Part shown: positions 22,101 to 60,922 of the stretch, one piece after another
How the letters are laid out: each line of letters starts with the position of its first letter
How positions within the stretch are numbered: the stretch's first letter is position 1
Source of the DNA: Agelas oroides
Taxonomy: Eukaryota > Porifera > Demospongiae > Agelasida > Agelasidae
Length of the DNA: 64,000 nucleotides
Direction: 5' to 3'
Assembly (NCBI GenBank): GCA_949130485.1
Contig: OX422185.1
Span: forward strand, 6,037,928-6,101,927
Program-made: the position numbers and the translations under genes
Notes under the pieces: model-generated
The model's input: only the letters and a program-made list of their open reading frames with translations
What the model was told of the DNA's origin: nothing
The model's database searches: none

Positions 22101-24459
22101 CTTCATTGTCCTAATGCAGTCCAGTCTTGTCCCAATGTTGTCCACTCTTGCCCCAAAGCTGTCCTTTATTGTCCTAATGCTGTCCAGTCTTGTACCAATG
22201 CTGTCCCTTATTGTCCTAATGCTGTCCAGTCTTGTCCCAATGCTGTCCAGCCTGCTCCCAATGCTGTCCTTTATTGTCCTAATGCTGTCCAGGCTTGCCC
22301 CAATGGTGTCCAGTCTTGTCCCAATACTGTCCAGTCTTGTCGCCATACTGTCCAGTCTTGTCCCAATCCTCTCCAGTCTTGTCCCAATGCTGTCATTTAT
22401 TGTCCCAATGCTGTCCAGTCTTGTCCCAATGGTGTCCAGTCTTGTCCCAATGCTGTGCTTTATTGTCCCAATCCCGTTAAGTCTTGACCCAATGCTATCC
22501 AATCTTGCCCCAATGCTGTCCAGTCTTGTCCCAATGCTGTCCATTCCATTCCCAATTCAGTCGAGTCTTGTCCCATTGCTGTCCAGTCTTGTCCCAATAC
22601 TGTCAAGTCTTGTCCCAGTCTTGTCCCAATGCTGTCCAATCTTGTCCCAATGCTGTCCTTTATTGTCCTAACGCTGTGCAGTCTTGTCCCAATGCTGTCA
22701 AGTCTTGTCACAATGCTGTCCAGTCTTGTCACAATGCTGTCCAGTCTTTTCGCAATGCTGTCTAGTCTTGACCCAATGCTGTCCAGTCTTGTCCGAATTC
22801 TCTCCAGTCGTGACCCAATTCTCTCCGGTCTTGTCCCAATGCTGTCCTTTATTGTCACAATGCTGTCCAGCCTTGTCACAATGCTGTCCAGTCTTTTCGC
22901 AATGCTGTCTAGTCTTGACCCAATGCTGTGCTTTCTTGTCCCAATTCCATCCAGTCTTGTCGCCATACTGTCCAGTCTTGTCCCAATCCTCTCCAGTCTT
23001 GTCCCAATGCTGTCATTTATTGTCCCAATGCTGTCCAGTCTTGTCCCAATACTGTCCAGTCTTGTCCCAATACTGTCCAGTCTTGTCCCTAGTCTTGCCC
23101 CATTCCTGTCCAGTCTTCTCCCAATGCTGTCCTTTATTGACCTAAAGCTGTCCAGTCTTCTCGCAATGCTATCCAGGCTTGTCACAATGCTGTCCAGTCT
23201 TGTCCCGATACTGTCCAGTCTTGTCCCAATGCTGTCCAGACTCGTCCCAATCCTGTCCATTCTTTTTCCAGTGCTGTCCTTTATTGTCGTAATGCTGTCC
23301 AGTCTTGTCACAATGCTGTCCAGTCTTTTCCCAGTGCTGTCCGGTCTTGTCCCAATGCTGTACTTTCTTGTCCCAATTCCATCCAGTCTTGTCGCCATGC
23401 TGTCCAGTCTTGTCCCAATCCTCTCCAGTCTTGTCCCAATGCTGTCATTTATTGTCCCAATGCTCTCCAGTCTTGTCCCAATGCTGTCTTTTATTGTCCC
23501 AATGCTGTCCAGTCTTGTCCTAATGCTGTCTAGTCTTGTCCAAATGCTGTCCATTCTTGTCCCAATACTGTCCAGTCTCCTCCCAATCCTGTCAAGTCTC
23601 GTCCCCATGCTGTCCATTCTTGTCCCAATGATGACCAGTCTCGTTCCAATGCTGTCCCGTCTTATCCGAATACTCTCCAGTCTTGTCCAAATCCTGTCCA
23701 GTATTGTCCTAATGCTGTCCTTTATTGTCCGAATCCTGTCCACACTTGTCCCAATGCTGTCCAGTCCATTCCCAATGCTGTCGAGTCTTGTCCCAATGCT
23801 GTCCAGTGCATTCCCAATCCTGTCCATTCTTATCCCAGTACTGTCTAGTCTTGTCCCAGTCTTGTCCAAATGCTGTCCAATCTTGTCCCAATGCTGTCCA
23901 ATCTTGTCCCAATGCTGTTCTTTATTGTCTTAACGCTGTGCAGTCTTGTCCCAATGCTGTCAAGTCTTGTCACAATGCTGTCCAGTCTTGTCCCAGTGCT
24001 GTCCAGTCTTGTCCCAATACTCTCCAGTCTTGTCCCTAGTCTTCCCCCAATGCTGTCCAGTCTTATCCCAATCCTGTCCAGTCTTATCCCATTCCTGTCC
24101 AGTCTTCTCCCAATGCTGTCCTTTATTGACCTAAAGCTGTCCAGTCTTCTCCCAATGCTATCCAGGCTTGTAACAATGCTGTCCAGTATTGTCCCGATAC
24201 TGTCCAATCTCGTCCCAATGCTGTCCAGACTCGTCCCAATGATGTCCATCCATTCCCAATGCTTTCGAGTTTTGTCCCAATGCTGTACACTCTTCTCCCT
24301 ATACTGTCCCGTTTCTCCCCAATGCTTTTCAATCTCGTCACAATGCTGTCCACTCTCGTCCCAATACTGTACAATCTTTTCTCACTGCTGTCCAGTCTTG
24401 TTGCAATGCTCTCCAGTCTTGTCCCAATGCTCTCCAATCTTTACCCAATCCTGTCCAAT
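19177..24459. repeat. 21-bp minisatellite array (about 250 units)
   Basis: The unit TGTCCAGTCTTGTCCCAATGC and variants (TGTCCTTTATTGTCCTAATG and others) run without a break. The unit is seven codons and lacks stops in all six frames, so long frames appear on both strands (DSIGTRL on minus; MLSSLVP, QCCPVLS and PNAVQSC on plus). Higher-order copies exist: about 0.3 kb from 19441, 20166 and 22463, and about 0.25 kb from about 20737, 23091 and 24047. It ends abruptly against the 192-bp satellite. Confidence 0.95.
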
Positions 24460-42200: not shown

Positions 42201-45171
42201 ATAGTTGCACTAATGGAAACTACATATGAGCAAGAAGCTGTGGGAATGGGGAAGCCAAAAACGCAAACCCTCCGTTTGTGCAATCAACGCACAAAGCGGT
42301 ACGAGCTTGCAAATTGTTCCTCCTGCACCATCGCAGCATTGTATCCGCAATGGAAATTCGCGTATATTCCCTGCAAACCCTACTACGGAACAATAGTTGC
42401 ACTAATGCAAACTACATATGAACATTAAGCTGTGGGAATGGGGAGGACAACAACGCAATACCCCCGTTTGTGCAAACAACGTACAAAGAGGTACGAGCTT
42501 GTAAATTATTCCTCATGCACCATCGCAGCATTGTATCCGCAATGGAAATTCGCGTATATTCCCTGCAAACCCTACTACGGAACAATAGTTGCACTAATGC
42601 AAACTACATATGAACATTAAGCTGTGGGAATGGGGAGGACAACAACGCAATACCCCCGTTTGTGCAAACAACGTACAAAGCGGTACGAGCTTGTAAATTA
42701 TTCCTCATGCACCATCGCAGCATTGTATCCGAAATGGAAATTCGCGTATATTCCCTGCAAAACCTACCACGGAACAATAGTTGCACTAATGCAAACTACA
42801 TATGAACATTAAGCTGTGGGAATGGGGCGGCCAACAACGCAAACCCTCCGTTTGTGCAATCAACGCACAAAGCGATACGAGCTTGCAAATTGTTCCTCCT
42901 CCACCATCGCGGCATAGTATCGGCAAAGGAAATTCGCGTGTACTCCCTGCAAACCCTACCACGGAACAATAGTTGCACTAATGCAAACTACATATGAGCA
43001 AGAAGCTGTGGGAATGGGGAAGCCAAAAACGCAAACCCTCCGTTTGTGCAAACAACGCACAAAGCGGTACGAGCTTGCAAATTGTTCCTCCTGCACAATC
43101 GCAGTATAGTATCCGCAATGGAAACTCGCGTATATTCCCTGCAAACCCTACCACGGAACAATAGTTGCACTAATGCAAACTACATTTAAGCTATGGGTAT
43201 GGGGAGGCCAACAACGCAAACCCTCCGTTTGTGCAATCAACACACAAAGCGGTACGAGCTTGCAAATTGTTCCACCTGCACAATCGCAGCATTGTATCGG
43301 CAATGGAAATTCGCGTAAATTACCTGCAAAACCTAGCCCGTCAAAATAGTTGCACTAATGCAAACTACATATGAGCAAGAACCTGTGGGAATGGGGAGGT
43401 CAAAAACGCAAACACTCCGTTTGTGCAGTCAACGCACAAAGCGGTACGAGCTTGTAAATTGTTCCTCCTGCACCATCGCAGCATTGTATCTGCAATGGAA
43501 GTTCGCGTATATTCCCTGCAAACCCTACTACGGAAGAATAGTTGCATTAATGCAAACTACATATGGACATTAAGCTGTGGGAATGGGGAGGCCAACAACG
43601 GAAATCCTCCGTTTGTGCAATCAACGCACAAAGCGGTACGAGCTTGTAAATTGTTCCACCAGCACAATCGCCGCTTAGTATCGGCAATGGAAATTCGCGT
43701 AAATACCTGCAAAACCTAGCCCGCAACAATAGTTGCACTAATGCAAACTACATATGAGAAAGAATCTGTGGGAATGGGGAGGTCAAAAACGTAAACCCTC
43801 CGTTTGTACAATCAACGCACAAAGCGGTACGAGCTTGCAAATTGTTCCTCCTCCACCATCGCCGCATAGTATCGGCATTGGAAATTCGCGTGTACTCCCT
43901 GCAAACCCTACCACATAACAATAGTTGCTCTAATGGAAACTACATATGAGCAAGAAGCTGTGGGAATGGGGAGGTCAAAAACGCAAACCCTCCGTTTGTG
44001 CACTCAACGTACAAAGCGGTAAGGGCTTGCAAATTGTTCCACCTGCACAATCGCCGCATAGTATCCGCAATGGAAATTCGCGTTTATTCCCTGCTAACCC
44101 TACTACGGAACAATAGTTGCTCTAATGCAAACTACATATGAGCAAGAAGCTGTGGGAATGGGGAAGCTAAAAACGCAAACCCTCCGTTTGTGCAATGAAC
44201 GCACAAAGTGGTACAAGCCTGCAAATTCGCGTATATTCCCTGCAAACCCTACCACGGAACAATAGTTGCACTAATGCAAACTACATATGAGCAATAAGCT
44301 GTGGGAATGGGGAGGCCTAAAACGCAATCCATCCGTTTGTGCAATCAACGCACAAAGCGGTAGGAGCTTGCAAATTGTTCCTCCTGCACCATCGCCGCAT
44401 AGTACCGGGAATGGAAATTCGCGAAAACTACCTGCAAAACTTATCCCGCAACAATAGTTGCACTAATGTAAACTACATATGAGCAAGAAGCTGTTGGAAT
44501 GGAGAGGTCAAAAACGCAAACCCTCCGTTTGTGCATTCAACGCGCAAAGAGGTACGAGCTTGCAAACTGTTCCTCCTCGAATATCGCCGCATAGTATCGG
44601 CAATGGAAATTCGCGTGTACTACCTGCAAACCCTACCACGGAACAATAGTTGCACTAATGGAAACTACATATGAGCAAGAAGCTGTAGGAATGGGGAAGC
44701 CAAAAACGCAATCCCTCCGTTTGTGCAATCAACCCACAAAGCGGTACGAGCTTGCAAATTGATCCTCCTGCACCATCGCAGCATAGTATCGGCAATTGCA
44801 CTTCACTAATATTCACTGCAAACCCTACCACGGAACAATAGTTGCACTAATGCAAACCACATATGAGCAAGAAGCTGTGGGAATGGGGAAGCCAAAAACG
44901 CAAACACTCCGTTTGTGCATTCAACGCACAAAGCGGTACAAGCTTGCAAATTGTTACTCCTGCTACATCGCAGCATAGTATCCGCAATGGAAATTCGCGT
45001 ATATTGCCTGCAAATCCTACCACGGAACAATAGTTGCACTAATGCAAAGTACATATGAGCAAGAATCTGTGGGAATGGAGAAGCCAAAAACGCAAACCCT
45101 CCGTTTGTGCAATCAACGAACAAAGCGTTACGAACATGCAAATTGTTCCTCCTGCACCATCGCAGCATATA
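36236..45171 (+). repeat. 192-bp satellite, subfamily A, forward (about 46 units)
   Basis: The longest A block. Six units (near 37921, 39605, 40140, 41050, 41775 and 44215) are about 149 bp long: GCTTGCAAATT joins CGCGTATATTCC directly, losing about 43 bp between two AAATT words. A composite of one short plus three full units (about 725 bp) is repeated from about 41041, 41765 and 44210. Confidence 0.95.
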
Positions 45172-45721
45172 CACAGCAAAAACAACGGTATGAAGTTCAT
45201 ACCAAAAGAGTATGACCTTCATCCCAACGAATTTCATACCTATGGTATGAATTGAGCGAGTATGACTTTCATACTTTCAGCGGTGCGTAATTCATACCGC
45301 GGATTGGAGAAGACGTTCGTCATACCGAAGTTGCGTGTGAACTTCATACCACGCTGCACGCGATGTTATTAGGTCAAAGGTCAAAAGCGTCGGTGGATGG
45401 GAAATCTATTTGTGCGTTTAAGAAATGTTATATTCTGCATGCATGATTGATGCTGCAACTTAGCCATGGAGCAGTGATCCCCGTGTCTCAAGACAGATTT
45501 CTCATGCAGGTAAGTCGATAGCTGATGAGACATTCTGTTGAAAATTTGGATTTATCTGTGTACCTACTTAGGGGTGGATGGGAATTGTGGTAAACATGCA
45601 TGGTTAATTTGCTATACACTAGCAAATGCAATGAATGTTCCCATGCTTCCATCCTCCCACAAGGGTTGTCATTTTTATGGGTACCATAGTCACAGTAGCA
45701 ACTCAAGTCAGACTAGAAACT

Positions 45722-48700
45722 GTATATAAACTACAATTTCCCGTTCCAGTTCAGCACACAGTGTGCCAGAGTTACAAACCAATTTGATATTATGAATGTA
45801 CAGGTAGAGTGGAGTTGATTGATACCTAGTTTGTCCTATTTGAAGTAGTTTTGGTCACGTTGATTTGAAAAAGCTAAGGTGATTGACCATCGAATTGATA
45901 TTCGGTAGGGTGTAAACTGCAATTTCCCGTTCCAGTCCAGCACACAGTGTGCCAGACTTACAAATCAATTTGATATTATCAATGTACAGGTAGAGTGGAG
46001 TTGATTGATACCTAGTTTGTCCTATTTGAAGTAGTTTTGGTCTCATAGGTTTGAAAAAGCTAAGGCGATTGAGCATCGAGTTGATATTCGGTAGGGTGTA
46101 AACTACAATTTCCCGTTCCAGTCCAGCACACAGTGTGCCAGAGTTACAAACCAATTTGATATTATGAATGTACAGGTAGAGTGGAGTTGATTGATACCTA
46201 GTTTGTCCTGTTTGAAGTAGTTTTGGTCTCGTAGGTTTGAAAAAGCTAAGGCGATTGACCATCGAGTTGATATTCGGTTGGGTGTCAACTACAATTTCCC
46301 GTTCCAGTCCAGCACACAGTGTGCCAGAGTTACAAACCAATTTGATATTATGAATGTACAGGTACAGTGGAGTTGATTGATACCTAGTTTGTCCTATTTG
46401 AAGTAGTTTTGGTCTCGTAGGTTTGAAAAAGCTAAAGCGATTGACCATCGAGTTGATATTCGGTTGGGTGTAAACTACAATTTCCCGTTCCAGTCCAGCA
46501 CACAGTGTGCCAGAGTTACAAACCAATTTGATATTATGAATGTACAGATAGAGTGGAGTTGATTGATACCTAGTTTGTCCTATTTGAAGTAGTTTTGGTC
46601 TCATAGGTTTGAAAAAGCCAAGGCGATTGAGCATCGAGTTGATATTCGGTAGGGTGTAAACTACAATTTCCCGTTCCAGTCCAGCACACAGTACAAACCA
46701 ATTTGATATTATGAATGTACAGGTAGAGTGGAGTTGATTGATACCTAGTTTGTCCTGTTTGAAGTAGTTTTGGTCTCATAGGTTTGAAAAAGCTAAGGCG
46801 ATTGAGCATCGAGTTGATATTCGGTTGGGTGTAAACTGCAATTTCCCGTTCCAGTCCAGCACACAGTGTGCCAGACTTACAAACCAATTTGATATTATGA
46901 ATGTACAGGTAGAGTGGAGTTGATTGATACCTAGTTTGTCCTATTTGAAGTAGTTTTGGTCTCATAGGTTTGAAAAAGCTAAGGCGATTGAGCATCGAGT
47001 TGATATTCGGTAGGGTGTAAACTACAATTTCCCGTTCCAGTCCAGCACACAGTGTGCCAGACTTACAAACCAATTTGATATTATGAATGTACAGGTAGAG
47101 TGGAGTTGATTGATACCTAGTTTGTCCTATTTGAAGTAGTTTTGGTCTCATAGGTTTGAAAAAGCTAAGGCGATTGAGCATCGAGTTGATATTCGGTAGG
47201 GTGTAAACTACAATTTCCCGTTCCAGTTCAGCACACAGTGTGCCAGACCTGCAAACCAATTTGATATTATGAATGTACAGGTAGAGTGGAGTTGATTGAT
47301 ACCTAGTTTGTCCTATTTGAAGTAGTTTTGGTCTCATAGGTTTGAAAAAGCTAAGGCGATTGAGCATCGAGTTGATATTCGGTAGGGTGTAAACTACAAT
47401 TTCCCGTTCCAGTCCAGCACACCCCGTGTTTGCCAGAGTTACAAACCAATTTGATATTATGAATGTACAGGTAGAGTGGAGTTGATTGATACCCAGTTTG
47501 TCCTATTTGAAGTAGTTTTGGTCTCGTAGGTATGAAAAAGCTAAGGGGATTGACCATCAAGTTGATATTCGGTTGGGTGTAAACTACAATTTCCCGTTCC
47601 AGTTCAGCACACAGTGTGCCAGACCTACAAACCAATTTGATATTATGAATGTACAGGTAGAGTGGAGTTGATTGATACCTAGTTTGTCCTATTTGAAGTA
47701 GTTTTGGTCTCATAGGTTTGAAAAAGCTAAGGCGATTCAGCATCGAGTTGATATTCGGTAGGGTGTAAACTACAATTTCCCATTCCAGTTCAGCACACAG
47801 TGTTCCAGAGTTACAAACCAATTTGATATTATGAATGTACAGGTAGAGTGGAGTTGATTGATACCTAGTTTGTCCTATTTGAAGTAGTTTTGGTCTCATA
47901 GGTTTGAAAAAGCTAAGGCGATTGACCATCGAGTTGATATTCGGTTGGGTGTAAACTACAATTTCCCGTTCCAGTCCAGCACACAGTGTGCCAGAGTTAC
48001 AAACCAATTTGATATTATGAATGTACAGATAGAGTGGAGTTGATTGATACCTAGTTTGTCCTATTTGAAGTAGTTTTGGTCTCATAGGTTTGAAAAAGCC
48101 AAGGCGATTGAGCATCGAGTTGATATTCGGTAGGGTGTAAACTACAATTTCCCGTTCCAGTCCAGCACACAGTACAAACCAATTTGATATTATGAATGTA
48201 CAGGTAGAGTGGAGTTGATTGATACCTAGTTTGTCCTATTTGAAGTAGTTTTGGTCTCATAGGTTTGAAAAAGCTAAGGCGATTGACCATCGAGTTGATA
48301 TTCGGTTGGGTGTAAACTACAATTTCCCGTTCCAGTCCAGCACACAGTGTGCCAGAGTTACAAACCAATTTGATATTATGAATGTACAGATAGAGTGGAG
48401 TTGATTGATACCTAGTTTGTCCTGTTTGAAGTAGTTTTGGTCTCATAGGTTTGAAAAAGCTAAGGCGATTGAGCATCGAGTTGATATTCGGTTGGGTGTA
48501 AACTGCAATTTCCCGTTCCAGTCCAGCACACAGTGTGCCAGACTTACAAACCAATTTGATATTATGAATGTACAGGTAGAGTGGAGTTGATTGATACCTA
48601 GTTTGTCCTATTTGAAGTAGTTTTGGTCTCATAGGTTTGAAAAAGCTAAGGCGATTGAGCATCGAGTTGATATTCGGTAGGGTGTAAACTACAATTTCCC

Positions 48701-50390
48701 GTTCCAGTCCAGCACACAGTGTGCCAGACTTACAAACCAATTTGATATTATGAATGTACAGGTAGAGTGGAGTTGATTGATACCTAGTTTGTCCTATTTG
48801 AAGTAGTTTTGGTCTCATAGGTTTGAAAAAGCTAAGGCGATTGAGCATCGAGTTGATATTCGGTAGGGTGTAAACTACAATTTCCCGTTCCAGTTCAGCA
48901 CACAGTGTGCCAGACCTGCAAACCAATTTGATATTATGAATGTACAGGTAGAGTGGAGTTGATTGATACCTAGTTTGTCCTATTTGAAGTAGTTTTGGTC
49001 TCATAGGTTTGAAAAAGCTAAGGCGATTGAGCATCGAGTTGATATTCGGTAGGGTGTAAACTACAATTTCCCGTTCCAGTCCAGCACACCCCGTGTTTGC
49101 CAGAGTTACAAACCAATTTGATATTATGAATGTACAGGTAGAGTGGAGTTGATTGATACCCAGTTTGTCCTATTTGAAGTAGTTTTGGTCTCGTAGGTAT
49201 GAAAAAGCTAAGGGGATTGACCATCAAGTTGATATTCGGTTGGGTGTAAACTACAATTTCCCGTTCCAGTTCAGCACACAGTGTGCCAGACCTACAAACC
49301 AATTTGATATTATGAATGTACAGGTAGAGTGGAGTTGATTGATACCTAGTTTGTCCTATTTGAAGTAGTTTTGGTCTCATAGGTTTGAAAAAGCTAAGGC
49401 GATTCAGCATCGAGTTGATATTCGGTTGGGTGTAAACTACAATTTCCCGTTCCAGTTCAGCACACAGTGTGCCAGACCTACAAACCAATTTGATATTATG
49501 AATGTACAGGTAGAGTGGAGTTGATTGATACCTAGTTTGTCCTATTTGAAGTAGTTTTGGTCTCATAGGTTTGAAAAAGCTAAGGCGATTCAGCATCGAG
49601 TTGATATTCGGTAGGGTGTAAACTACAATTTGCCATTCCAGTTCAGCACACAGTGTTCCAGAGTTACAAACCAATTTGATATTATGAATGTACAGGTAGA
49701 GTGGAGTTGATTGATACCTAGTTTGTCCTATTTGAAGTAGTTTTGGTCTCATAAGTTTGAAAAAGCTAAGGCGATTGAGCATCGAGTTGATATTCGGTAG
49801 GGTGTAAACTACAATTTCCCGTTCCAGTCCAGCACACAGTGTGCCAGACTTACAAACCAATTTGATATTATGAATGTACAGGTAGAGTGGAGTTGATTGA
49901 TACCTAGTTTGTCCTATTTGAAGTAGTTTTGGTCTCATAGGTTTGAAAAAGCTAAGGCGATTGAGCATCGAGTTGATATTCGGTAGGGTGTAAACTACAA
50001 TTTCCCGTTCCAGTTCAGCACACAGTGTGCCAGACCTACAAACCAATTTGATATTATGAATGTACAGGTAGAGTGGAGTTGATTGATACCTAGTTTGTCC
50101 TATTTGAAGTAGTTTTGGTCTCATAGGTTTGAAAAAGCTAAGGCGATTCAGCATCGAGTTGATATTCGGTAGGGTGTAAACTACAATTTCCCATTCCAGT
50201 TCAGCACACAGTGTTCCAGAGTTACAAACCAATTTGATATTATGAATGTACAGGTAGAGTGGAGTTGATTGATACCTAGTTTGTCCTATTTGAAGTAGTT
50301 TTGGTCTCGTAGGTTTGAAAAAGCTAAGGCGATTGACTATTGAAATGATATTCGGTTGGGTGTAAACTGCATTTTTCCGTTCCATTCCTA
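45722..50390. repeat. 186-bp tandem array inside element copy 1 (about 25 units)
   Basis: The unit contains AAGCTAAGGCGATTGA, GAGTTGATATTCGGT, TAAACTACAATTTCCCGTTCC, CAGCACACAGTGTGCCAGA and GTAGAGTGGAGTTGATTGAT. 186 bp is 62 codons, so minus-strand frames of 250-455 codons cross many units. Rare variants (CAGCACACAGTACAAACC at 46681 and 48162; ACCCCGTGTT at 47421 and 49088) show a higher-order duplication of about 1.5-1.7 kb. Confidence 0.95.
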
Positions 50391-52140
50391 TTTTTTCCTA
50401 CCGTGTCTGATTTTTAATCTATTTATTCATCTTTACTGTTTCTCCTTACAGGACCAAATGGGCAAAGGTAGACAACCTGGGTGTTGTCTGTGGAAGACTG
50501 AAGTTACTGCCGTTAAGGAGATATTGGACTGAGTCTATTTAGTTGTTGACAGCAGTGCTTTTGTTTTTTGTATGTTCAGTTCCTGTCATCATTTGATCAT
50601 TCTGTCATGCATTGGTAAACTCTGGGCCGAACCATAAGTTCTGGGTTACTACCACTGTCAGTGCATGAGACGTTCCCCAACAAGTCAGCTCCACCTATAC
50701 CTATTCGTGCGTGGTGCGCGTGCGCAATTGTTTGAACTTTGACCTTGAGCGCGCTCGCGCTCGAAGTGTGATACTTTTCAAAATGAAGCGCGAGTGAAGG
50801 AAGGAGGTGTGCCACGGAACTCGGTCTGAACAGGACAACGGTGAGCAGTGTTTCTCGCAAAATTTATCTTGCTAGTACGTAGAAAGCTGGGAAATATGTC
50901 AGAATAGTATACAGTCACTTGTAGCCCTGTGACATTCTCATATGCTGTATATGAAGCTCTTGGAAACGCTCTTCATGGTGTGGATTTTGCTTTCTGTTTT
51001 AGTACATGTGGTGCTGGACTTCTGATGTCATCTCCCCTCCTTGTATACATAGATGGAGGTGAGCCTGGGATATTGTTACAAATTGTGACATGAATTCATC
51101 CTGTCATTCTTCCTCATTATGGCACTCAGACTGTGTATCACGGAACAAGAGCAAAGCAGGTACAGTACACTTTAACACACATACATACAAACATAAGTAC
51201 ACCTCCTATCTTTCCGTCTGACAGTGTACCCGCAACTTTTCTGTCGGGTCTATATCAAAGAGCAAGAGCCAGTGAAGAATTAAAGGTACAGTTCCCTTTT
51301 GTCTCGTACTGCACCCTCATTTTTCTGTCGCATAGTGTAACCTCGTTCTTCTTTCTGTCCCATACTCCAATTCCACATTCTTTCTGTTTCATAGTACACT
51401 TCCTCCCTCTTTGATATTGTTCTCTCCCCCCGCACGTACACACAAAGGTAGACAGAAGCCAGCCTGATGTATTGCCACAGTGAATATTTGCTCCTTACAT
51501 TCTTCCTCACCACTTTTACATCCAGGGTCTATCACGGAACAAAAGCCAAGTAAAGAATTAGAGGTACAGTTCTTTCTCTCTCATAGTGCACCCTTGTCCT
51601 TTCTGTCCCATAACTGTACCCACATTCTTTGCATGATATTCTTACCCCTCGTATATACACACTGGGTAGATAGAGGCCAGCCTGGGTACAATCTACAATG
51701 ATAACCTCTTCCTTTCCTATTACTCCCACGTTCAGAGTCAAACACGGAAAGTGAGCCAAACAAAGAATTAGAGGTAGATGTTCCTTCCTCATTTTCTCTC
51801 TTCCCTCCTCTGCACACACACACTCACACAGACACAGAACAATAACAAAGTGAAGAAGTACAGGTACGGCATGCACTTCCAGAGCCCATACATGCACTTT
51901 CCCTTTTATTTCTGCCCAATGATATACTAGTATTTATGCTGTCTTGTTTCCCCACAGATGCAGATATCTATGCTGCAGAAAGTACAAAAGTAACAAGTGA
52001 CTTTATACTTGAACTAAGTAGATGCTATATACTAAGGTTTACTTGCTTTTGCTGTCAGTGCATTTCCTTGTGTGCATTATAATCTGTTTTGCCGCAATAC
52101 TGTCATTCAACAGCAAGGACAAGCTGAATGTACAATGCAT
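50391..52140. other. Exon-like duplicated segments in tail of element copy 1
   Basis: A splice-like acceptor TTTCTCCTTACAG at about 50453 precedes a short frame (DQMGKGRQPGCCLWK...). Further on, three diverged direct copies of a module of about 220-400 bp begin near 51051, 51449 and 51667. Each runs through AGCCTGG/AGCCTGAT, a C/T-rich stretch and an AG, to a 30-39-nt CTATCACGGAACAA..GAATTAGAG-like segment followed by GTACAG or GTAGATG. The last frame ends LSRCYILRFTCFCCQCISLC... then stop. Nothing was recognised. These may be captured gene fragments. Confidence 0.4.
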
Positions 52141-52215
52141 AGATTATACTGCTATAAGCAGGATGACAATCATACCAATTCATGGATGAAAATCATACTA
52201 TCTACTCGTGTGATG

Positions 52216-52400
52216 ATCATACCCTTTTTGGTATGAAATTCATACCGTTTTGGTATGATATTCATACCACTTTGGTATGATATTCATACCGTTTTAGGTA
52301 TGAAATCCATACCATTTTTGGTATGAAATTCATACCGTTTTTGGTATGCTCAGTGTAAAAAGCGAAATCATACCTATTTTGGTATGAACTTCATACCATT
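52216..52400. repeat. Subterminal palindrome array of copy 1
   Basis: About seven units of GGTATGAAATTCATACC with a T-rich 4-7-base spacer. The matching array of copy 2 is at about 60720-60905. Such arrays near the ends of CACTA elements are typical transposase-binding regions. Confidence 0.75.
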
Positions 52401-52414
52401 GTTTTTGCTGTGTA

Positions 52415-52783
52415 GTATCCGCAAAGGAAATTCGTGTATATCCCCTGCAAACCCTACCACGGAACAATAGTTGCACTAATGCAAACTACATATGAATATT
52501 AAGCTGTGGGAATGGGGAGGCCAACAACGCAAACCCTCCGTTTGTGCAATCAACGCACAAAGCGGTACGAGCTTGTAAATTGTTCCTCCTGCAATATCGC
52601 ACCATAGTATCGGTAATTGAAATTCGCGTGTACTCCCTTCAAACCTTACCATGGAACAATAGTTGCACTAATGCAAACTACATATGAGCAAGAAGCTGTG
52701 GGAATAGGGAGGTCACAAACGCAAAACCCTCCGTTTGTGCAATCAACGCACAAAGGGGTACGAGCTTGCAAATTGTTTCTCCT
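52415..52783 (+). repeat. 192-bp satellite A between the two large elements
   Basis: About two A units in forward orientation. This shows that the two large elements are independent neighbouring insertions into one array and not a single element. Confidence 0.9.
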
Positions 52784-53384
52784 CACAGCAAAAACAACGG
52801 TATGAAGTTCATACCAAAAGAGTATGACCTTCATCCCAACGAATTTCATACCTATGGTATGAATTGAGCGAGTATGACTTTCATACTTTCAGCGGTGCGT
52901 AGTTCATACCGCGGATGGGAGAAGACGTTCGTCATACCGAAGCTGCGTGTGAACTTCATACCCCGCTGCACGCGGTGTTATTAGGTCAAAGGTCAAAAGC
53001 GTCGGTGGATGAGAAATCTATTTATGCGTGTAGGAAATTTTATATTCTGCGTGCAGTGCATGCAGTCGATGCAACATAGCCATGCAGCAGTGATCCCCGT
53101 GTCTCAAGACAGATTTCTTATGCAAGTAAGTCGATAGCTGATGAGAAATTTTGTTGAAAATTTGGATTTATCTGTGTAGATCTACCTACTTAGGGGTGGA
53201 TAGGAATTGTGCTTAAACATGCATGGTTAATTTGCTACACACTAGCAAATGCAATAAATGTTCCCATGCTTCCATCCTCCCACGAGGGTTGTCATTTTTA
53301 TGGGTACCATAGTCACAGTAGCAACTGAAGTCAGACTAGAAACCATATGTAAACTAGATTTTCCCGTTCCAATCCAGCACAGGT

Positions 53385-53684
53385 CAAGGGGTAGTCACTT
53401 ATATGTCGCCTGTAGAAGCGTTTGCGACCACAATCAAATATTTTGATTGGCAACAAGTGTGCTTGATCGCTTGATCGTCCCCTTCTGAGGCTCTTGATCA
53501 CTTGATTTTCAAGGGTCAAAGGTCAAATTGCAGCCACGCATTCTTGATTGTTGATTTTTAGCAGTTCAGAGGTCACCTTGATCCCTTGATCGGCCTCCCA
53601 AAAGGGCTTTGATCGCTTGATTCAGTTTTGATCCCGGTCGCAAACGCTTCTACAGGGGACATGTAAGTGACTATATACCCCTTG
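53385..53684. mobile_element. 300-bp foldback insertion inside element copy 2, 5-bp TSD
   Basis: CAAGGGGTAGTCACTTATAT..GTAGAAGCGTTTGCGACC is mirrored by GGTCGCAAACGCTTCTAC..ATGTAAGTGACTATATAC and CCCCTTG. CAGGT flanks it (53380-53384 and 53685-53689). The core has many TTGATCNCTTGAT motifs. It interrupts the first 186-bp unit and is absent from copy 1, so it arrived after the two copies separated. Confidence 0.8.
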
Positions 53685-53689
53685 CAGGT

Positions 53690-56600
53690 GTACATGTACC
53701 AGAGTTACAAACCAATTATGAAGATACCTAGTTTGTCCTATTTGAAGTAGTTTTGGTCTCGTACATGTAGGTTTGAAAAAGCTAAGGTGATTGAGCATCG
53801 AGTTGATATTCGGTTGGGTGTAAACTACAATTTCCCGTTCCAGTCTAGCACACAGTGTGCCAGAGTTAGAAACCAATTTGATATTATGAATGTACAGGTA
53901 GAGTGGAGTTGATTGATACCTAGTTTGTCCTATTTGAAGTAGTTTTGGTCTCGTAGGTTTGAAAAAGCTAAGGCGATTTACCATCGAATTGATGTTCGGT
54001 TGAGTGTAAACTACAATTTCCCGTTCCAGTCCAGCACACAGTGTGCCAGACTTACAAACCAATTTGATATTATGAATGTACAGGTAGAGTGGAGTTGATT
54101 GATACCTAGTTTGTCCTATTTGAAGTAGTTTTGGTCTCGTAGGTTTGAAAAAGCTAAGGCGATTGAGCATCGAGTTGATGTTCGGTTGGGTGTAAACTAC
54201 GATTTCCCGTTCCAGTCCAGCACACAGTGTGCCAGACTTACAAACCAATTTGATATTATGAATGTACAGGTAGAGTGGAGTTGATTGATACCTAGTTTGT
54301 CCTATTTGAAGTAGTTTTGGTCTTGTAGGTTTGAAAAAGCTAAGGCGATTGAGCATCGAGTTGATATTCGGTTGGGTGTAAACTACAATTTCCCGTTCCA
54401 GTCCTGCACACAGTGTGCCAGACTTACAAACCAATTTGATATTATGAATGTACAGGTAGAGTGGAGTTGATTGATACCTAGTTTGTCCTATTTGAAGTAG
54501 TTTTGGTCTCGTAGGTTTGAAAAAGCTAAGGCGATTGAGCATCGAGTTGATATTCGGTTTGGTGTAAACTACAATTTCCCGTTCCAGTCCAGCACACAGT
54601 GTGCCAGACTTACAAACCAATTTGATATTATGAATGTACAGGTAGAGTGGAGTTGATTGATACCTAGTTTGTCCTATTTGAAGTAGTTTTGGTCTCGTAG
54701 GTTTGAAAAAGCTAAGGCGATTGAGCATCGAGTTGATGTTCGGTTGGGTGTAAACTACAATTTCCCGTTCCAGTCCAGCACACAGTGTGCCAGACTTACA
54801 AACCAATTTGATATTATGAATGTACAGGTAGAGTGGAGTTGATTGATACCTAGTTTGTCCTATTTGAAGTAGTTTTGGTCTTGTAGGTTTGAAAAAGCTA
54901 AGGCGATTGAGCATCGAGTTGATATTCGGTTGGGTGTAAACTACAATTTCCCGTTCCAGTCCTGCACACAGTGTGCCAGACTTACAAACCAATTTGATAT
55001 TATGAATGTACAGGTAGAGTGGAGTTGATTGATACCTAGTTTGTCCTATTTGAAGTAGTTTTGGTCTCGTACGTTTGAAAAAGCTAAGGCGATTGAGCAT
55101 CGAGTTGATATTCGGTTTGGTGTAAACTACAATTTCCCGTTCCAGTCCAGCACACAGTGTGCCAGACTTACAAACCAATTTGATATTATGAATGTACAGG
55201 TAGAGTGGAGTTGATTGATACCTAGTTTGTCCTATTTGAAGTAGTTTTGGTCTTGTAGGTTTGAAAAAGCTAAGGCGATTGAGCATCGAGTTGATATTCG
55301 GTTGGGTGTAAACTACAATTTCCCGTTCCAGTCCTGCACACAGTGTGCCAGACTTACAAACCAATTTGATATTATGAATGTACAGGTAGAGTGGAGTTGA
55401 TTGATACCTAGTTTGTCCTATTTGAAGTAGTTTTGGTCTCGTACGTTTGAAAAAGCTAAGGCGATTGAGCATCGAGTTGATATTCGGTTTGGTGTAAACT
55501 ACAATTTCCCGTTCCAGTCCAGCACACAGTGTGCCAGACTTACAAACCAATTTGATATTATGAATGTACAGGTAGAGTGGAGTTGATTGATACCTAGTTT
55601 GTCCTATTTGAAGTAGTTTTGGTCTCGTAGGTTTGAAAAAGCTAAGGCGATTGAGCATCGAGTTGATATTCGGTTGGGTGTAAACTACAATTTCCCGTTC
55701 CAGTCCAGCACACAGTGTGCCAGACTTACAAACCAATTTGATATTATGAATGTACAGGTAGAGTGGAGTTGATTGATACCTAGTTTGTCCTATTTGAAGT
55801 AGTTTTGGTCTCGTAGGTTTGAAAAAGCTAAGGCGATTGAGCATCGAGTTGATATTCGGTTGGGTGTAAACTACAATTTCCCGTTCCAGTCCTGCACACA
55901 GTGTGCCAGACTTACAAACCAATTTGATATTATGAATGTACAGGTAGAGTGGAGTTGATTGATACCTAGTTTGTCCTATTTGAAGTAGTTTTGGTCTCGT
56001 AGGTTTGAAAAAGCTAAGGCGATTGAGCATCGAGTTGATATTCGGTTTGGTGTAAACTACAGTTTCCCGTTCCAGTCCAGCACACAGTGTGCCAGACTTA
56101 CAAACCAATTTGATATTATGAATGTACAGGTAGAGTGGAGTTGATTGATACCTAGTTTGTCCTATTTGAAGTAGTTTTGGTCTCGTAGGTTTGAAAAAGC
56201 TAAGGCGATTGAGCATCGAGTTGATATTCGGTTGGGTGTAAACTACAATTTCCCGTTCCAGTCCAGCACACAGTGTGCCAGACTTACAAACCAATTTGAT
56301 ATTATGAATGTACAGGTAGAGTGGAGTTGATTGATACCTAGTTTGTCCTATTTGAAGTTGTTTTGGTCTCGTAGGTTTGAAAAAGCTAAGGCGATTGAGC
56401 ATCGAGTTGATATTCGGTTGGGTGTAAACTACAATTTCCCGTTCCAGTCCTGCACACAGTGTGCCAGACTTACAAACCAATTTGATATTATGAATGTACA
56501 GGTAGAGTGGAGTTGATTGATGCCTAGTTTGTCCTATTTGAAGTAGTTTTGGTCTCGTAGGTTTGAAAAAGCTAAGGCGATTGAGCATCGAGTTGATATT

Positions 56601-58865
56601 CGGTTTGGTGTAAACTACAGTTTCCCGTTCCAGTCCAGCACACAGTGTGCCAGAGTTACAAACCAATTTGATATTATGAATGTACAGGTAGAGTGGAGTT
56701 GATTGATACCTAGTTTGTCCTATTTGAAGTAGTTTTGGTCTCGTAGGTTTGAAAAAGCTAAGGCGATTGAGCATCGAGTTGATATTCGGTTGGGTGTAAA
56801 CTACAATTTCCCGTTCCAGTCCTGCACACAGTGTGCCAGACTTACAAACCAATTTGATATTATGAATGTACAGGTAGAGTGGAGTTGATTGATACCTAGT
56901 TTGTCCTATTTGAAGTAGTTTTGGTCTCGTAGGTTTGAAAAAGCTAAGGCGATTGAGCATCGAGTTGATATTCGGTTGGGTGTAAACTACAATTTCCCGT
57001 TCCAGTCCAGCACACAGTGTGTCAGAGTTAGAAACCAATTTGATATTATGAATGTACAGGTAGAGTGGAGTTGATTGATACCTAGTTTGTCCTATTTGAA
57101 GTAGTTTTGGTCTCGTAGGTTTGAAAAACTAAGGCGATTGAGCATCGAGTTGATATTCGGTTTGGTGTAAACTACAATTTCCCGTTCCAGTCCTGCACAC
57201 AGTGTGCCAGACTTACAAACCAATTTGATATTATGAATGTACAGGTAGAGTGGAGTTGATTGATACCTAGTTTGTCCTATTTGAAGTAGTTTTGGTCTCT
57301 AGGTTTGAAAAACTAAGGCGATTGAGCATCGAGTTGATATTCGGTTTGGTGTAAACTACAATTTCCCGTTCCAGTCCAGCACACAGTGTGCCAGACTTAC
57401 AAACCAATTTGATATTATGAATGTACAGGTAGAGTGGAGTTGATTGATGCCTAGTTTGTCCTGTTTGAAGTAGTTTTGGTCGTGTAGGTTTGAAAAAGCT
57501 AAGGCGATTGACCATCGAGTTGATGTTCAGTTGGGTGTAAACTACAATTTCCTGTTCCATTCCAGCACAGAGTGTACCAGACTTACAAACCAATTTGATA
57601 TTATGAATGTACAGGTAGAGTGGAGTTGATTGATACCTAGTTTGTCCTATTTGAAGTAGTTTTGGTCTCGTAGGTTTGAAAAACTAAGGCGATTGAGCAT
57701 CGAGTTGATATTCGGTTTGGTGTAAACTACAATTTCCCGTTCCAGTCCAGCACACAGTGTGCCAGACTTACAAACCAATTTGATATTATGAATGTACAGG
57801 TAGAGTGGAGTTGATTGATGCCTAGTTTGTCCTGTTTGAAGTAGTTTTGGTCTTGTAGGTTTGAAAAAGCTAAGGCGATTGACCATCGAGTTAATATTCA
57901 GTTGGGTGTAAACTACAATTTCCTGTTCCATTCCAGCACAGAGTGTACCAGACTTACAAACCAATTTGATATTATGAATGTACAGGTAGAGTGGAGTTGA
58001 TTGATACCTAGTTTGTCCTATATTTGAAGTAGTTTTGGTCTCATAGGTTTGAAAAAGCTAAGGCGATTGACCATCGAGTTGATATTCGGTTCGGTGTAAA
58101 CTACAATTTCCCGTTCCAGTCCAGCACACAGTGTGCCAGACTTACAAACCAATGTGACATTATGAATGTACAGGTAGAGTGGAGTTGATTGATACCTAGT
58201 TTGTCCTATTTGAAGTAGTTTTGGTCTCATAGGTTTGAAAAAGCTAAGGCGATTGAGCATCGAGTTGATATTCGGTTTGGTGTAAACTACAATTTCCCGT
58301 TCCAGTCCAGCACACAGTGTGCCAGACTTACAAACCAATTTGATATTATGAATGTACAGGTAGAGTGGAGTTGATTGATGCCTAGTTTGTCCTGTTTGAA
58401 GTAGTTTTGGTCTTGTAGGTTTGAAAAAGCTAAGGCGATTGACCATCGAGTTGATATTCAGTTGGGTGTAAACTACAATTTCCTGTTCCATTCCAGCACA
58501 GAGTGTACCAGACTTACAAACCAATTTGATATTATGAATGTACAGGTAGAGTGGAGTTGATTGATACCTAGTTTGTCCTATTTGAAGTAGTTTTGGTCTC
58601 ATAGGTTTGAAAAAGCTAAGGCGATTGACCATCGAGTTGATATTCGGTTCGGTGTAAACTACAATTTCCCGTTCCAGTCCAGCACACAGTGTGCCAGACT
58701 TACAAACCAATTTGACATTATGAATGTACAGGTAGAGTGGAGTTGATTGATACCTAGTTTGTCCTATTTGAAGTAGTTTTGGTCTAATAGGTTTGAAAAA
58801 GCTAAGGCGATTGAGCATCGAGTTGATATTCGGTTTGGTGTAAACTACAATTTCCTGTTCCATTC
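53690..58865. repeat. 186-bp tandem array inside element copy 2 (about 28 units)
   Basis: The same unit as in copy 1. On the minus strand one frame stays open for 1138 codons (57038-53622), with a 62-residue repeat containing SFFKPTRPKLLQIGQTRYQS and LCAGLEREIVVYTQPNINSM. Units alternate CAGTCCAGCACAC and CAGTCCTGCACAC in an irregular two- or three-unit pattern, pointing to recent higher-order amplification. Small indels near 57127 and 57300 break the frame. Confidence 0.95.
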
Positions 58866-60650
58866 CTATGGTTCCTACCGTGTCTGATTTTTAATCTATT
58901 TATTCATCTTTACTGTTTCTCCTTACAGGACCAAATGGGCAAAGGTAGACAACCTGGGTGTTGTCTGTGGAAGGCTGAAGTTGCTGCATGCTGTTATGGA
59001 GATATTGGACTGAGTCTATTTAGTTGTTGACAGCAGTGTTTTTGTTTTCTTGTATGTTCAGTTCCTGTCATCATTTGTCATGCATTGGTAAACTCTGGGC
59101 CGAACCATAAGTTCTGGGTTACTACCACTGTCAGCAGTCCCAAACAAGTCAGCTCCACCTATTCGTGCGTGGTGCGCGTGCGCAATTGTTTGAACTTTGA
59201 CCTTGAGCGCGCTCGCGCTCGAAGTGTGATACTTTTGAAAATGAAGCGCGAGTGAAGGAAGGAGGTGTGCCACGGAACTCAGTCTGAACAGGACAACGGT
59301 GAGCAGTGTTTCTCGCTAAATTTATCTTGCTAGTACGTAGAAAGCTGGGAAATATGTCAGAATAGTATACAGTCACTTGTAGCCCTGTGACATTCTCATA
59401 TGCTGTATATGAAGCTCTTAAAAACGCTCTTCATGGTGTGGATTTTGATTTCTGTTTTAGTACATGTGGTGCTGGACTTCTGATGTCATCTCCCTCGTAC
59501 ATATAGATGAGGTGAGCATGGGATATTGTTACAAATTATGACGTATGAATTCACCCTGTCATTCTTCCTCATTACGGCACTCAGACCGTGTATCACGGAA
59601 CAAGAGCAAAGCAGGTACAGTACACTTGAACACACATACATAAGTACACCTATCTTTCCGTCTGACAGTGTACCCGCAACTTTTCTGTCGAGTCTATATC
59701 GAAGAGCAAGAGCCAGTGAAGAATTAAAGGTACAGTTCCCTTTTGTCTCGTACTGCACCCTCATTTTTCTGTCGCATAGTGTAACCTCGTTCTTCTTTCT
59801 GTCCCATACTCCAATTCCACATTCTTTCTGTTTCATAGTACACTTCCTCCCTCTTTGATATTGTTCTCTCCCCACGCACGTACACACAAAGGTAGACAGA
59901 AGCCAGCCTGATGTATTGCCACAGTGAATATTTGCTCCTTACATTCTTCCTCACCACTTTTACATCCAGGGTCTATCACAGAACAAAAGCCAAGTAAAGA
60001 ATTAGAGGTACAGTTCTTTCTCTCTCATAGTGCACCCTTGTCCTTTCTGTCCCATAACTGTACCCACATTCTTTGCACGATATTCTTACCCCTCGTATAT
60101 ACACACTGGGTAGATAGAGGCCAGCCTGGGTACAATCTACAATGATAACCTCTTCCTTTCCTATTACTCCCACGTTCAGAGTCAAACACGGAAAGTGAGC
60201 CAAACAAAGAATTAGAGGTAGATGTTCCTTCCTCGTTTTCTCTCTTCCCTCCTCTGCACACACACACTCACACAGACACAGAACAATAGCAAAGTGAAGA
60301 AGTACAGGTACAGCATGCACATGTATACTTATACACACACGTAAACTTGTGTTTTGTTTCTCCACTATACCCTACTCTCTCCTTTCCCAGAGCCCATACA
60401 TGCACTTTCCCTTTTATTTCTGCCCAATGATATACTAGTATTTATGCTGTCTTGTTTCCCCACAGATGCAGATATCTATGCTTCAGAAAGTACAGAAGCA
60501 ACAAGTGACTTTATACTTGAACTAAGTAGATGCTATATACTAAGGTTTACTTGCTTTTGCTGTCAGTGCATTTCCTTGTGTGCATTATAATCTGTTTTGC
60601 CACAATACTGTCATTCAACAGCAAGGACAAGCTGAATGTACAATGCATAG
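58866..60650. other. Exon-like tail of element copy 2
   Basis: Closely similar to 50391-52140, including the TTTCTCCTTACAG acceptor-like site, the GCGCGCTCGCGCTC palindrome and the CTATCAC.GAACAA modules. Small differences change the short frames (for example the frame after 58929 diverges downstream of CCLWK), which argues against conserved coding. Confidence 0.4.
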
Positions 60651-60922
60651 ATTATACTGCTATAAGCAGCATGACAATCATATCAATTCATGGATGAAAA
60701 TCATACTATGTACTCGTGTGATGATCATACCCTTTTTGGTATGAAATTCATACCGCTTTGGTATGATATTCATACTGCTTTGGTATGATATTAATACCGT
60801 TTTTGGTATGAAATTCATACCATTTTTGGTATGAAATTCATACCGTTTTTGGTATGCTCAGTGTAAAAAGTGAAATCATACCTATTTTGGTATGAACTTC
60901 ATACCATTGTTTTTGCTGTGCT

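Follow-up and report, generated by a model that had tools for sequence, protein, structure and literature searches.

A mobile element family with CACAG..CTGTG ends and an internal 186-bp satellite array in the sponge Agelas oroides

The window analysed here is a 64,000-nucleotide stretch of the Agelas oroides genome (GCA_949130485.1, contig OX422185.1, positions 6,037,928 to 6,101,927 of the forward strand). It contains two elements, A and B, which lie 371 bp apart in the same orientation within one 192-bp satellite (Table 1). Both begin with CACAGCAAAAACAAC... and finish with ...ATTGTTTTTGCTGTG, and thus possess inverted CAC..GTG termini (CACAGCAAAAACAA..TTGTTTTTGCTGTG). Short subterminal repeats, GGTATGAA/TTCATACC, are clustered in both orientations at each end of the two elements; outside these clusters the 8-mers occur at four places of the window (17050, 34146, 47529 and 49196). 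An internal 186-bp array occupies 64% of A and 63% of B. A preliminary description of this DNA had reported two elements of 7.2 and 8.1 kb with CACAG..CTGTG ends, 2-bp target site duplications (TSDs; TA for A and CT for B), subterminal repeat arrays and an internal array of about 60% of the length, lying 371 bp apart in one satellite, and all of this was borne out. B also holds a nested insert in its first array unit; L031, a copy on another contig, is broken at the same place.

Table 1. Features of elements A and B, in positions of the window.
Feature	Position	Strand	Basis
Left TSD of A, TA	45170-45171	.	end comparison
Element A, complete non-autonomous copy, 7241 bp	45172-52412	+	inverted ends, TSD
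A 5' terminus and subterminal GGTATGAA/TTCATACC cluster	45172-45359	+	
Splice-donor-like ATGCAG/GTAAGT, 5' of the array in A	45500-45515	+	ten-copy alignment; splicing judged from motifs
186-bp array of A, 25 units	45727-50359	+	nhmmer, TRF
Splice-acceptor-like pyrimidine tract, CAG and downstream block, 3' of the array in A	50430-50490	+	
A 3' subterminal repeat cluster and terminus	52217-52412	+	
Right TSD of A, TA	52413-52414	.	end comparison
192-bp satellite between A and B, the insertion target	52415-52781	.	
Left TSD of B, CT	52782-52783	.	end comparison
Element B, complete non-autonomous copy, 8137 bp	52784-60920	+	inverted ends, TSD
Insert of about 300 bp nested in B's first array unit, ends inverted	53383-53685	.	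bounds approximate, by eye
186-bp array of B, 28 unit matches	53678-58835	+	nhmmer
B 3' subterminal repeat cluster and terminus	60725-60920	+	
Right TSD of B, CT	60921-60922	.	end comparison

The family is mobile as a unit bounded by CACAG..CTGTG; its target duplications are of 2 bp, most often CA, TA or TG. A total of 120 matches to the 32-bp terminus were found in the 259-Mb genome with at most 3 mismatches, and the reversed-pattern control gave none. It had been set beforehand that termini never occurring as inverted pairs with 2-bp TSDs would speak against the family; an exact 2-bp duplication flanks 24 of the 28 paired copies (CA 10, TA 9, TG 3, CT 1, TT 1), and a matching one is missing in the other four end pairs. 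Empty sites with one copy of the TSD, also named in the preliminary description, were found for the copy L017 and for B. The L017 site is intact at C1:4630279 (100%, 170/170 bases) and is present again at 4587882 and 4544857 of C1 (99% each, 170/170 bases), while at the occupied locus the query splits into two matches at the element. The rejoined flanks of B are matched across by nine strings within the window. Those of A carry one extra TA relative to the satellite units, and the clean empty-site match in the satellite is therefore B's only. A query from the flanks of L028 matched a diverged repeat and was set aside as proof. A 1312-bp copy with TA duplications has no 186-bp unit match, so the array is dispensable for movement.

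Array units were counted by profile search (nhmmer), and eight copies read whole were chosen for the array analysis, with the satellite-free copy L056 left out. In all eight the array lies between intact ends, always at the same position and facing the same way. Its distance from the 5' end is 548-573 bp in seven copies and 894 bp in B, which holds the insert; unit matches are on one strand throughout (243/243 in ten copies). A subfamily diverged by about 10-20% has the array at the same place. The size ranges from 8 to 62 units, and the largest array read belongs to a complete element flanked by TA duplications.

Close copies have the array edges in common, while the interior differs far beyond the rest of the element and blocks of neighbouring units are duplicated. 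Outside the array, B is 99.8% identical to L031 and 96.6% to A; the arrays of B and L031 reach about 97% at best and are reshuffled in the interior. In main-subfamily arrays of at least 11 units, the nearest relative of a unit lies within its own array for 56-97% of units, versus 4-21% expected. On average, units of one array are scarcely more alike than units of different arrays, and whole-array homogenisation is thus weak. No repeated runs of at least 3 units at 99% were found in L017 and L028. Assembly error in the arrays may be a source of differences.

Splice-like sites were found on both sides of the array, with putative junctions in A at 45509/45510 and 50451/50452. The donor-like GTAAGT is kept in all ten aligned copies; B and L031 have AA in place of the AG before it. 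Downstream of the acceptor-like AG, a run of 38 bases is identical in eight of the ten copies, which represent two subfamilies, and has a single change in L020 and in L028. Within each 186-bp unit, a core of about 60 bp is more conserved; it includes a donor-like CAG/GTAGAG. A long minus-strand frame, possible because 186 is 3 x 62, runs through the array and reaches 1168 aa in B. Its synonymous and non-synonymous variants (62/167 observed versus 61.2/164.5 expected) agree closely with expectation, as they do in all six frames. Four unrelated Pfam families were hit by the B frame (best E 2.9e-11), but no individual stretch passed by itself, which looks as if scores had been added up over the repeats. 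The array frame was rejected as a gene on both grounds.

The genome has 871 units of the 186-bp satellite, and the arrays sampled are almost wholly beside the termini. Among 42 such arrays, 39 have a listed terminus no more than 10 kb away, and these zones together cover 0.63% of the genome; arrays mostly outside the termini had been named beforehand as a refuting outcome. Of the three arrays farther than 10 kb from any listed terminus, one is a truncated copy bearing the element's own 5' sequence, and two, C3:7446877 and C3:10384507, are unread. None of the 42 was shown to be a free array. The idea of a mobile family that has CACAG..CTGTG ends and 2-bp TSDs and carries its own satellite is supported. 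The further suggestion that it seeds new satellite arrays found no backing, since no free array was shown and the terminus-less array that was read is a truncated element.

Three other histories of the elements can be weighed. A and B could represent one duplicated satellite stretch rather than two insertions, in keeping with their common orientation and the 371-bp gap. This is scarcely conceivable and was refuted: the TSDs differ and lie at different phases of the 192-bp unit, and B is nearer to L031 on another contig than to A. A free satellite might have existed earlier and been captured by the transposon. Such a capture has been proposed for one Chenopodium CACTA element with a 171-bp satellite, a close parallel (PMC8978399), and the two unread arrays on C3 would suit it. 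We consider it unlikely for the present family, with nearly all sampled arrays beside a listed terminus and the other one read being a truncated element; any capture would be old, as the diverged subfamily has its array at the same place. The reverse course, in which the family seeds free arrays as reported for Tetris in Drosophila virilis, could draw on an element that moves and holds up to 62 units. It could also draw on two C8 copies, which sit in a satellite with about 70-72% likeness to the 192-bp one; they share the 3' flank and an identical changed last base, and so look amplified together with this host satellite. Seeding is very improbable, however, as no free array was shown and the largest array sits within a complete element. 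Movement of the family is well shown; seeding of free satellite arrays elsewhere is not.

The statement that no transposase is visible held in a Pfam search of the nine non-array frames of A and B, where nothing passed the curated cut-off and two weak matches had E of 0.042 and 0.057. All 22 Transposase_21 matches in the genome are more than 15 kb from any of the 104 termini used, which are not all. The one Transposase_21 family of this genome with readable ends has CACTGG..CCCAGTG and 3-bp duplications. A total of 118 DUF6589 matches were compared with the termini by eye; one gene is located 5.5 kb from a 3' terminus (L036), which, with so many loci, is within chance by rough estimate. The one DUF6589 family with readable ends was rejected, having CAGTCGTTCCGCA ends and 4-bp duplications unlike the A/B family. 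L082 was also dismissed as an autonomous copy, being an older-subfamily element of 8956 bp with the same array and an insert of about 4.1 kb that splits it. A Plavaka model was uninformative, with nothing found here or in 14 controls.

By its termini, target duplications and subterminal repeats, the family agrees with the wider CACTA-Mirage-Chapaev-Transib (CMCT) kind, which is described as having mostly CA..TG ends and 2-5 bp duplications, the EnSpm families there having 3 bp (PMC12730594); in these two features the A/B family falls within the wide definition. No transposase was linked to the ends, that of the group being a DDE enzyme with C(2)C and H(3-4)H motifs. With strict CACTA/EnSpm the family shares the CAC..GTG inverted termini and the short subterminal repeats in both orientations. 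Strict CACTA/EnSpm duplications of 3 bp, as stated for plant CACTA (PMC8978399) and fungal EnSpm (PMC12730594), are not those of the family, which has 2 bp in 24/28 paired copies. It agrees with the TRC branch of animal CACTA in the 2-bp duplication (24/28) and differs in its CACAG ends, without the CCC core. The name CACTA-like given earlier stands for the anatomy, whereas no autonomous partner was found and the Transposase_21 family read differs (CACTGG, 3 bp). Helitrons and Helentrons were ruled out by the inverted ends and TSD, and a Tetris-like foldback element by the single internal array on one strand. There is a little under an even chance that the family belongs to another cut-and-paste lineage with CA..TG ends and 2-bp duplications, and not to EnSpm/CACTA proper. 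The breadth of CMCT ends and duplications means that these features do not single out CACTA (PMC12730594), and 3-bp duplications are made by the Transposase_21 family read in the same genome. On the other hand, an animal CACTA, SmTRC1, has been published with 2-bp duplications and tandem repeats (PMC1636069), and terminal inverted repeats with subterminal repeats are described as CACTA anatomy (PMC8978399).

A and B are very probably non-autonomous DNA transposons, likely of a cut-and-paste type, from a family that behaves like the wider CMCT kind and carries the satellite as a passenger. A transposase from another element would bind the ends and the palindromic subterminal motifs. The array may be tolerated because the internal stretch that holds it is dispensable and may be an intron between the splice-like sites; it might grow and shrink by unequal exchange, slippage or gap repair. 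On this reading the satellite spreads by transposition, and escape into free arrays was not seen among those sampled. Alternatively, the array could be a working part that the element maintains, with a role for example in splicing, in chromatin or in the binding of a transposase. The transposon would then keep and renew a satellite of its own, which it could pass on to chromosomes. Its constant place between the splice-like sites in two subfamilies and the conserved core of the unit suggest this reading, to which we give a distinctly low probability.

Satellite-carrying CACTA and other transposons are already known, and the A/B family is a further member. The general idea that transposons carry or spawn satellites has been published for plants, flies and oysters (PMC9659126, PMC7320549, PMC8978399, PMC4079207). 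The CACTA element of Chenopodium quinoa (Jozin group) resembles A and B in its near-complete ends and its satellite array, which has 32.5 units of 171 bp (5550 of 16523 bp) and occurs in CACTA elements of four scaffolds (PMC8978399). Unlike A and B, it comes from a plant, codes for Transposase_21 and has the array near its 3' end; its authors read capture, report multiple arrays very often in or near CACTA elements, and define CACTA by 3-bp duplications (PMC8978399). SmTRC1 and other animal TRC elements, of the CACTA superfamily, share with A and B the animal host, 2-bp duplications (7/14 copies) and a tandem-repeat region; their spliced transcripts would be a further likeness, splicing in A and B being judged from motifs (PMC1636069). 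They differ from the CACAG elements by ends with a CCC core, a coded Transposase_21 and a tandem region 3' of the gene (PMC1636069). The foldback element Tetris is likewise a DNA transposon with tandem repeats, of about 220 bp and variable number, for which the element supplying the transposase was not found; its repeats lie within the inverted ends, and 39 contigs have TIR-220 repeats alone, which was not seen here (PMC4079207). Internal satellite-like repeats are also spread by CgHINE/Helentron of oysters and by satellite-carrying MITEs, the former being rolling-circle elements without target duplication and the latter short, about 400 bp (PMC9659126). The satellites of Atenspm/ENSAT1 (PMC9659126) and Jozin CficCl-61-40 (PMC7320549) are tied to En/Spm-CACTA as well; they were traced to the 5' UTR or tnp2, whereas the 186-bp unit has no traced source.

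For the arrays sampled, the family is a clear case, seen in a chromosome-scale assembly, of a satellite housed almost entirely within a mobile element, and it could show whether arrays carried by transposons ever become free. The recent copies B and L031, with edges 0.2% apart and reshuffled array interiors, can serve as a clock that would allow satellite turnover to be measured against a known carrier age.

The two transposon copies in the window, elements A and B, are built as the preliminary description had it, with inverted ends (CACAGCAAAAACAA..TTGTTTTTGCTGTG), TA or CT direct repeats, clusters of GGTATGAA/TTCATACC immediately inside each end and, further in, a 186-bp tandem array. By profile search the array has 25 units in A and 28 unit matches in B, filling 64% and 63% of the respective element. 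The two are 371 bp apart and both lie inside a 192-bp satellite. No match above the curated Pfam cut-off was found for the nine non-array frames of A and B.

Positions and flanking repeats of the two elements in the window
Element	Position	2-bp direct repeat	Ends
A	45172-52412	TA	inverted
B	52784-60920	CT	inverted

At window positions 24452-45169 the 192-bp satellite, judged by its consensus units, seems to switch direction repeatedly (near 29066 and 34412), giving inverted domains; short units of 149 bp recur in this satellite. It is directly adjoined by about 5.3 kb of a 21/42/63-bp tandem repeat (19178-24457).

The family, meaning all copies that share these termini, is mobile. Within the genome searched (259 Mb, 141 contigs), the 32-bp terminus with up to three mismatches matches 61 times in forward and 59 times in reverse orientation, and the control has no match in either; 100 of the 120 places were listed. 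Ends were paired for 28 copies with lengths from 1312 to 14081 bp, and 24 of them bear an exact 2-bp target duplication (8/8, 8/12 plus the small copy L056, and 7/7 by batch), namely CA in ten, TA in nine, TG in three, and CT and TT in one each. No exact 2-bp duplication was found at the other four (C3:7918196, C3:16041002, C8:8774704 and C9:8573213). The flanks of locus L017, rejoined with one TG, form a precise empty site: three uninterrupted matches to them lie on the same contig (100, 99 and 99% over 170/170 bases), and at the occupied locus the element divides the match in two. The string CTCCTCCACCATC, spanning the rejoined B site, occurs at nine places in the window; the rejoined A string GCATATAGTAT has no occurrence there. 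The rejoined flanks of A hold one extra TA, and its left flank reads GCATATA (window 45160-45175).

The C8 copies ending at 8758848 and 8774704 need not be independent insertions, because the 3' flank and a changed last base are common to both. Both (C8:8751858-8758848 and C8:8770082-8774704) lie within a satellite that has about 70-72% similarity to the 192-bp one, and probably multiplied along with the satellite array that contains them. Two loci about 73 kb apart, L032 (C2:19312100-19322099) and L033 (C2:19385603-19395602), have in common the flank bases beside the terminus, with near-identical internal frames, and are likely a segmental duplication.

The 186-bp array is part of the element. 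In the eight fully read copies chosen for this analysis, it starts 548-573 bp from the element start, but at 894 bp in B, where an insert breaks up the first unit; 1979-2110 bp follow the array, and the unit counts are 8, 11, 24, 25, 27, 28, 34 and 62. All 243 unit matches in these copies and in L035 and L082, two copies of an older subfamily, are on one strand. In each of two array searches, 38 of the 102 or 103 candidates were scored, the arrays sampled being the best-matching ones among the matches listed; 35 of 36 arrays in the first and 4 of 6 further arrays in the second have a listed terminus no more than 10 kb away, and these 10-kb zones make up 0.63% of the genome. The exception of the first search, C1:22967, has element 5' sequence in front, ends abruptly inside a unit and is a truncated element copy. 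A 40-bp unit core with up to three mismatches has 871 genome matches (control, 0); among the 100 places listed, all on C1 or C2, 98 are in arrays adjoining a listed terminus and two in the truncated copy. Movement does not depend on the array, since L056 (1312 bp) bears TA duplications and has no match to the 186-bp unit.

The insert in the first unit of B is about 300 bp long with inverted ends (window 53383-53685); because the array of L031, a copy on C2, is broken at the same place, it may travel with the B/L031 lineage.

Divergence outside the array among the eight whole copies is 0.2-5.2%, so some copying is recent. The older subfamily is about 10-20% diverged from A and has its array in the same position, interrupted in both copies. 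In L035 the interruption holds opposite-strand frames encoding B-box, Ulp1-like protease and PHD domains (L035:2506-4363), possibly genes of another mobile element; in L082 the array is split by roughly 4.1 kb of inserted sequence, in which a retroelement-like frame was recognised by eye.

On average, units resemble those of other arrays about as closely as those of their own (95.1% identity within A, 95.0% with B), and whole arrays are therefore not homogenised. In main-subfamily arrays of at least 11 units, 56-97% of units have their nearest relative in their own array, against an expected 4-21%; the figure is 0-45% for short or partly read arrays, 86% in the older L035 (7 units) and 100% in L032, a diverged array with 186-bp units of only about 80% similarity to the main ones. 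Among six arrays tested, repeated runs of at least three consecutive unit pairs at 99% occur within A, B, L023 and L031, and none within L017 or L028. B (on C3) and L031 are 99.8% identical outside the array, yet their arrays align at best at about 97%; order is kept by the first full unit and, towards the opposite end, by two units, and the middle is reshuffled. It thus appears that the array is inherited with the copy, after which duplication and loss of blocks change it faster than point mutation does; array misassembly is a possible alternative.

We assign the family to the wide CMCT group with rather better than even confidence, on the basis of its CAC..GTG ends, subterminal repeats and short duplications; passages of PMC12730594 give this group mostly CA..TG ends and 2-5 bp duplications. 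That it stands apart from EnSpm/CACTA proper has slightly less than an even chance. Fungal EnSpm (PMC12730594) and plant CACTA elements (PMC8978399) are given 3-bp duplications in the parts of these sources available, against 2 bp here. None of 22 Transposase_21 hits lies within 15 kb of a listed terminus (104 termini used), and no transposase was tied to the family's ends. The one Transposase_21 family with readable ends in this genome (L079, L080) has CACTGG..CCCAGTG termini and, by eye, 3-bp duplications (TTC and CAA). For these reasons we do not file A and B as strict EnSpm/CACTA. However, an animal CACTA element, SmTRC1, is described in the available part of PMC1636069 with 2-bp duplications and a tandem-repeat region, both as in the A/B family.

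The general idea of a transposon with a satellite is covered by available passages on a CACTA element of C. quinoa that carries 32.5 units of a 171-bp satellite (PMC8978399), the foldback element Tetris with 220-bp repeats (PMC4079207), satellite-carrying Helentrons and MITEs (PMC9659126) and the satellite-linked Jozin (PMC7320549). Nothing in the literature listings searched named the A/B family, which does not prove it undescribed. The family is unusually satellite-rich, with up to 81% of one copy being satellite, and provides a useful natural clock.

The array sits in what looks like an intron-like setting, with putative splice sites on either side: GTAAGT from 45510, and a pyrimidine tract with CAG ending at 50451. 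GTAAGT is kept in 10/10 copies, and the putative exon end is AA, not AG, in B and L031. Of ten copies drawn from two subfamilies, eight agree at all 38 bases after the AG of the CAG and the remaining two show a single base change; by contrast, identity between the subfamilies is 46-48% over the 60 bases at the array edge. On its own this conservation is weak evidence, because further windows in the 3' part also reach 96-100% identity. Short exon-like blocks were seen by eye downstream of the acceptor-like site. No coding constraint was found in the array; within the 186-bp unit, variation over one stretch of about 60 bp is lower than elsewhere by a factor of about two to three.

A separate DNA transposon of about 6.7 kb was observed at L077 (C17:3658300-3667299) and L078 (C18:6752834-6761833), with inverted CAGTCGTTCCGCA ends and, by eye, 4-bp duplications (TGCT; TTGA). 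A literature search for the word DUF6589 found no paper, and a search of solved structures gave no match below E 0.7. Since DUF6589, a 'family of unknown function', is the sole Pfam match of the single open frame (1913 aa), it looks like a transposase family. L077 and L078 match base for base (100%) over 6729 bp, and a third locus scores the same for DUF6589.
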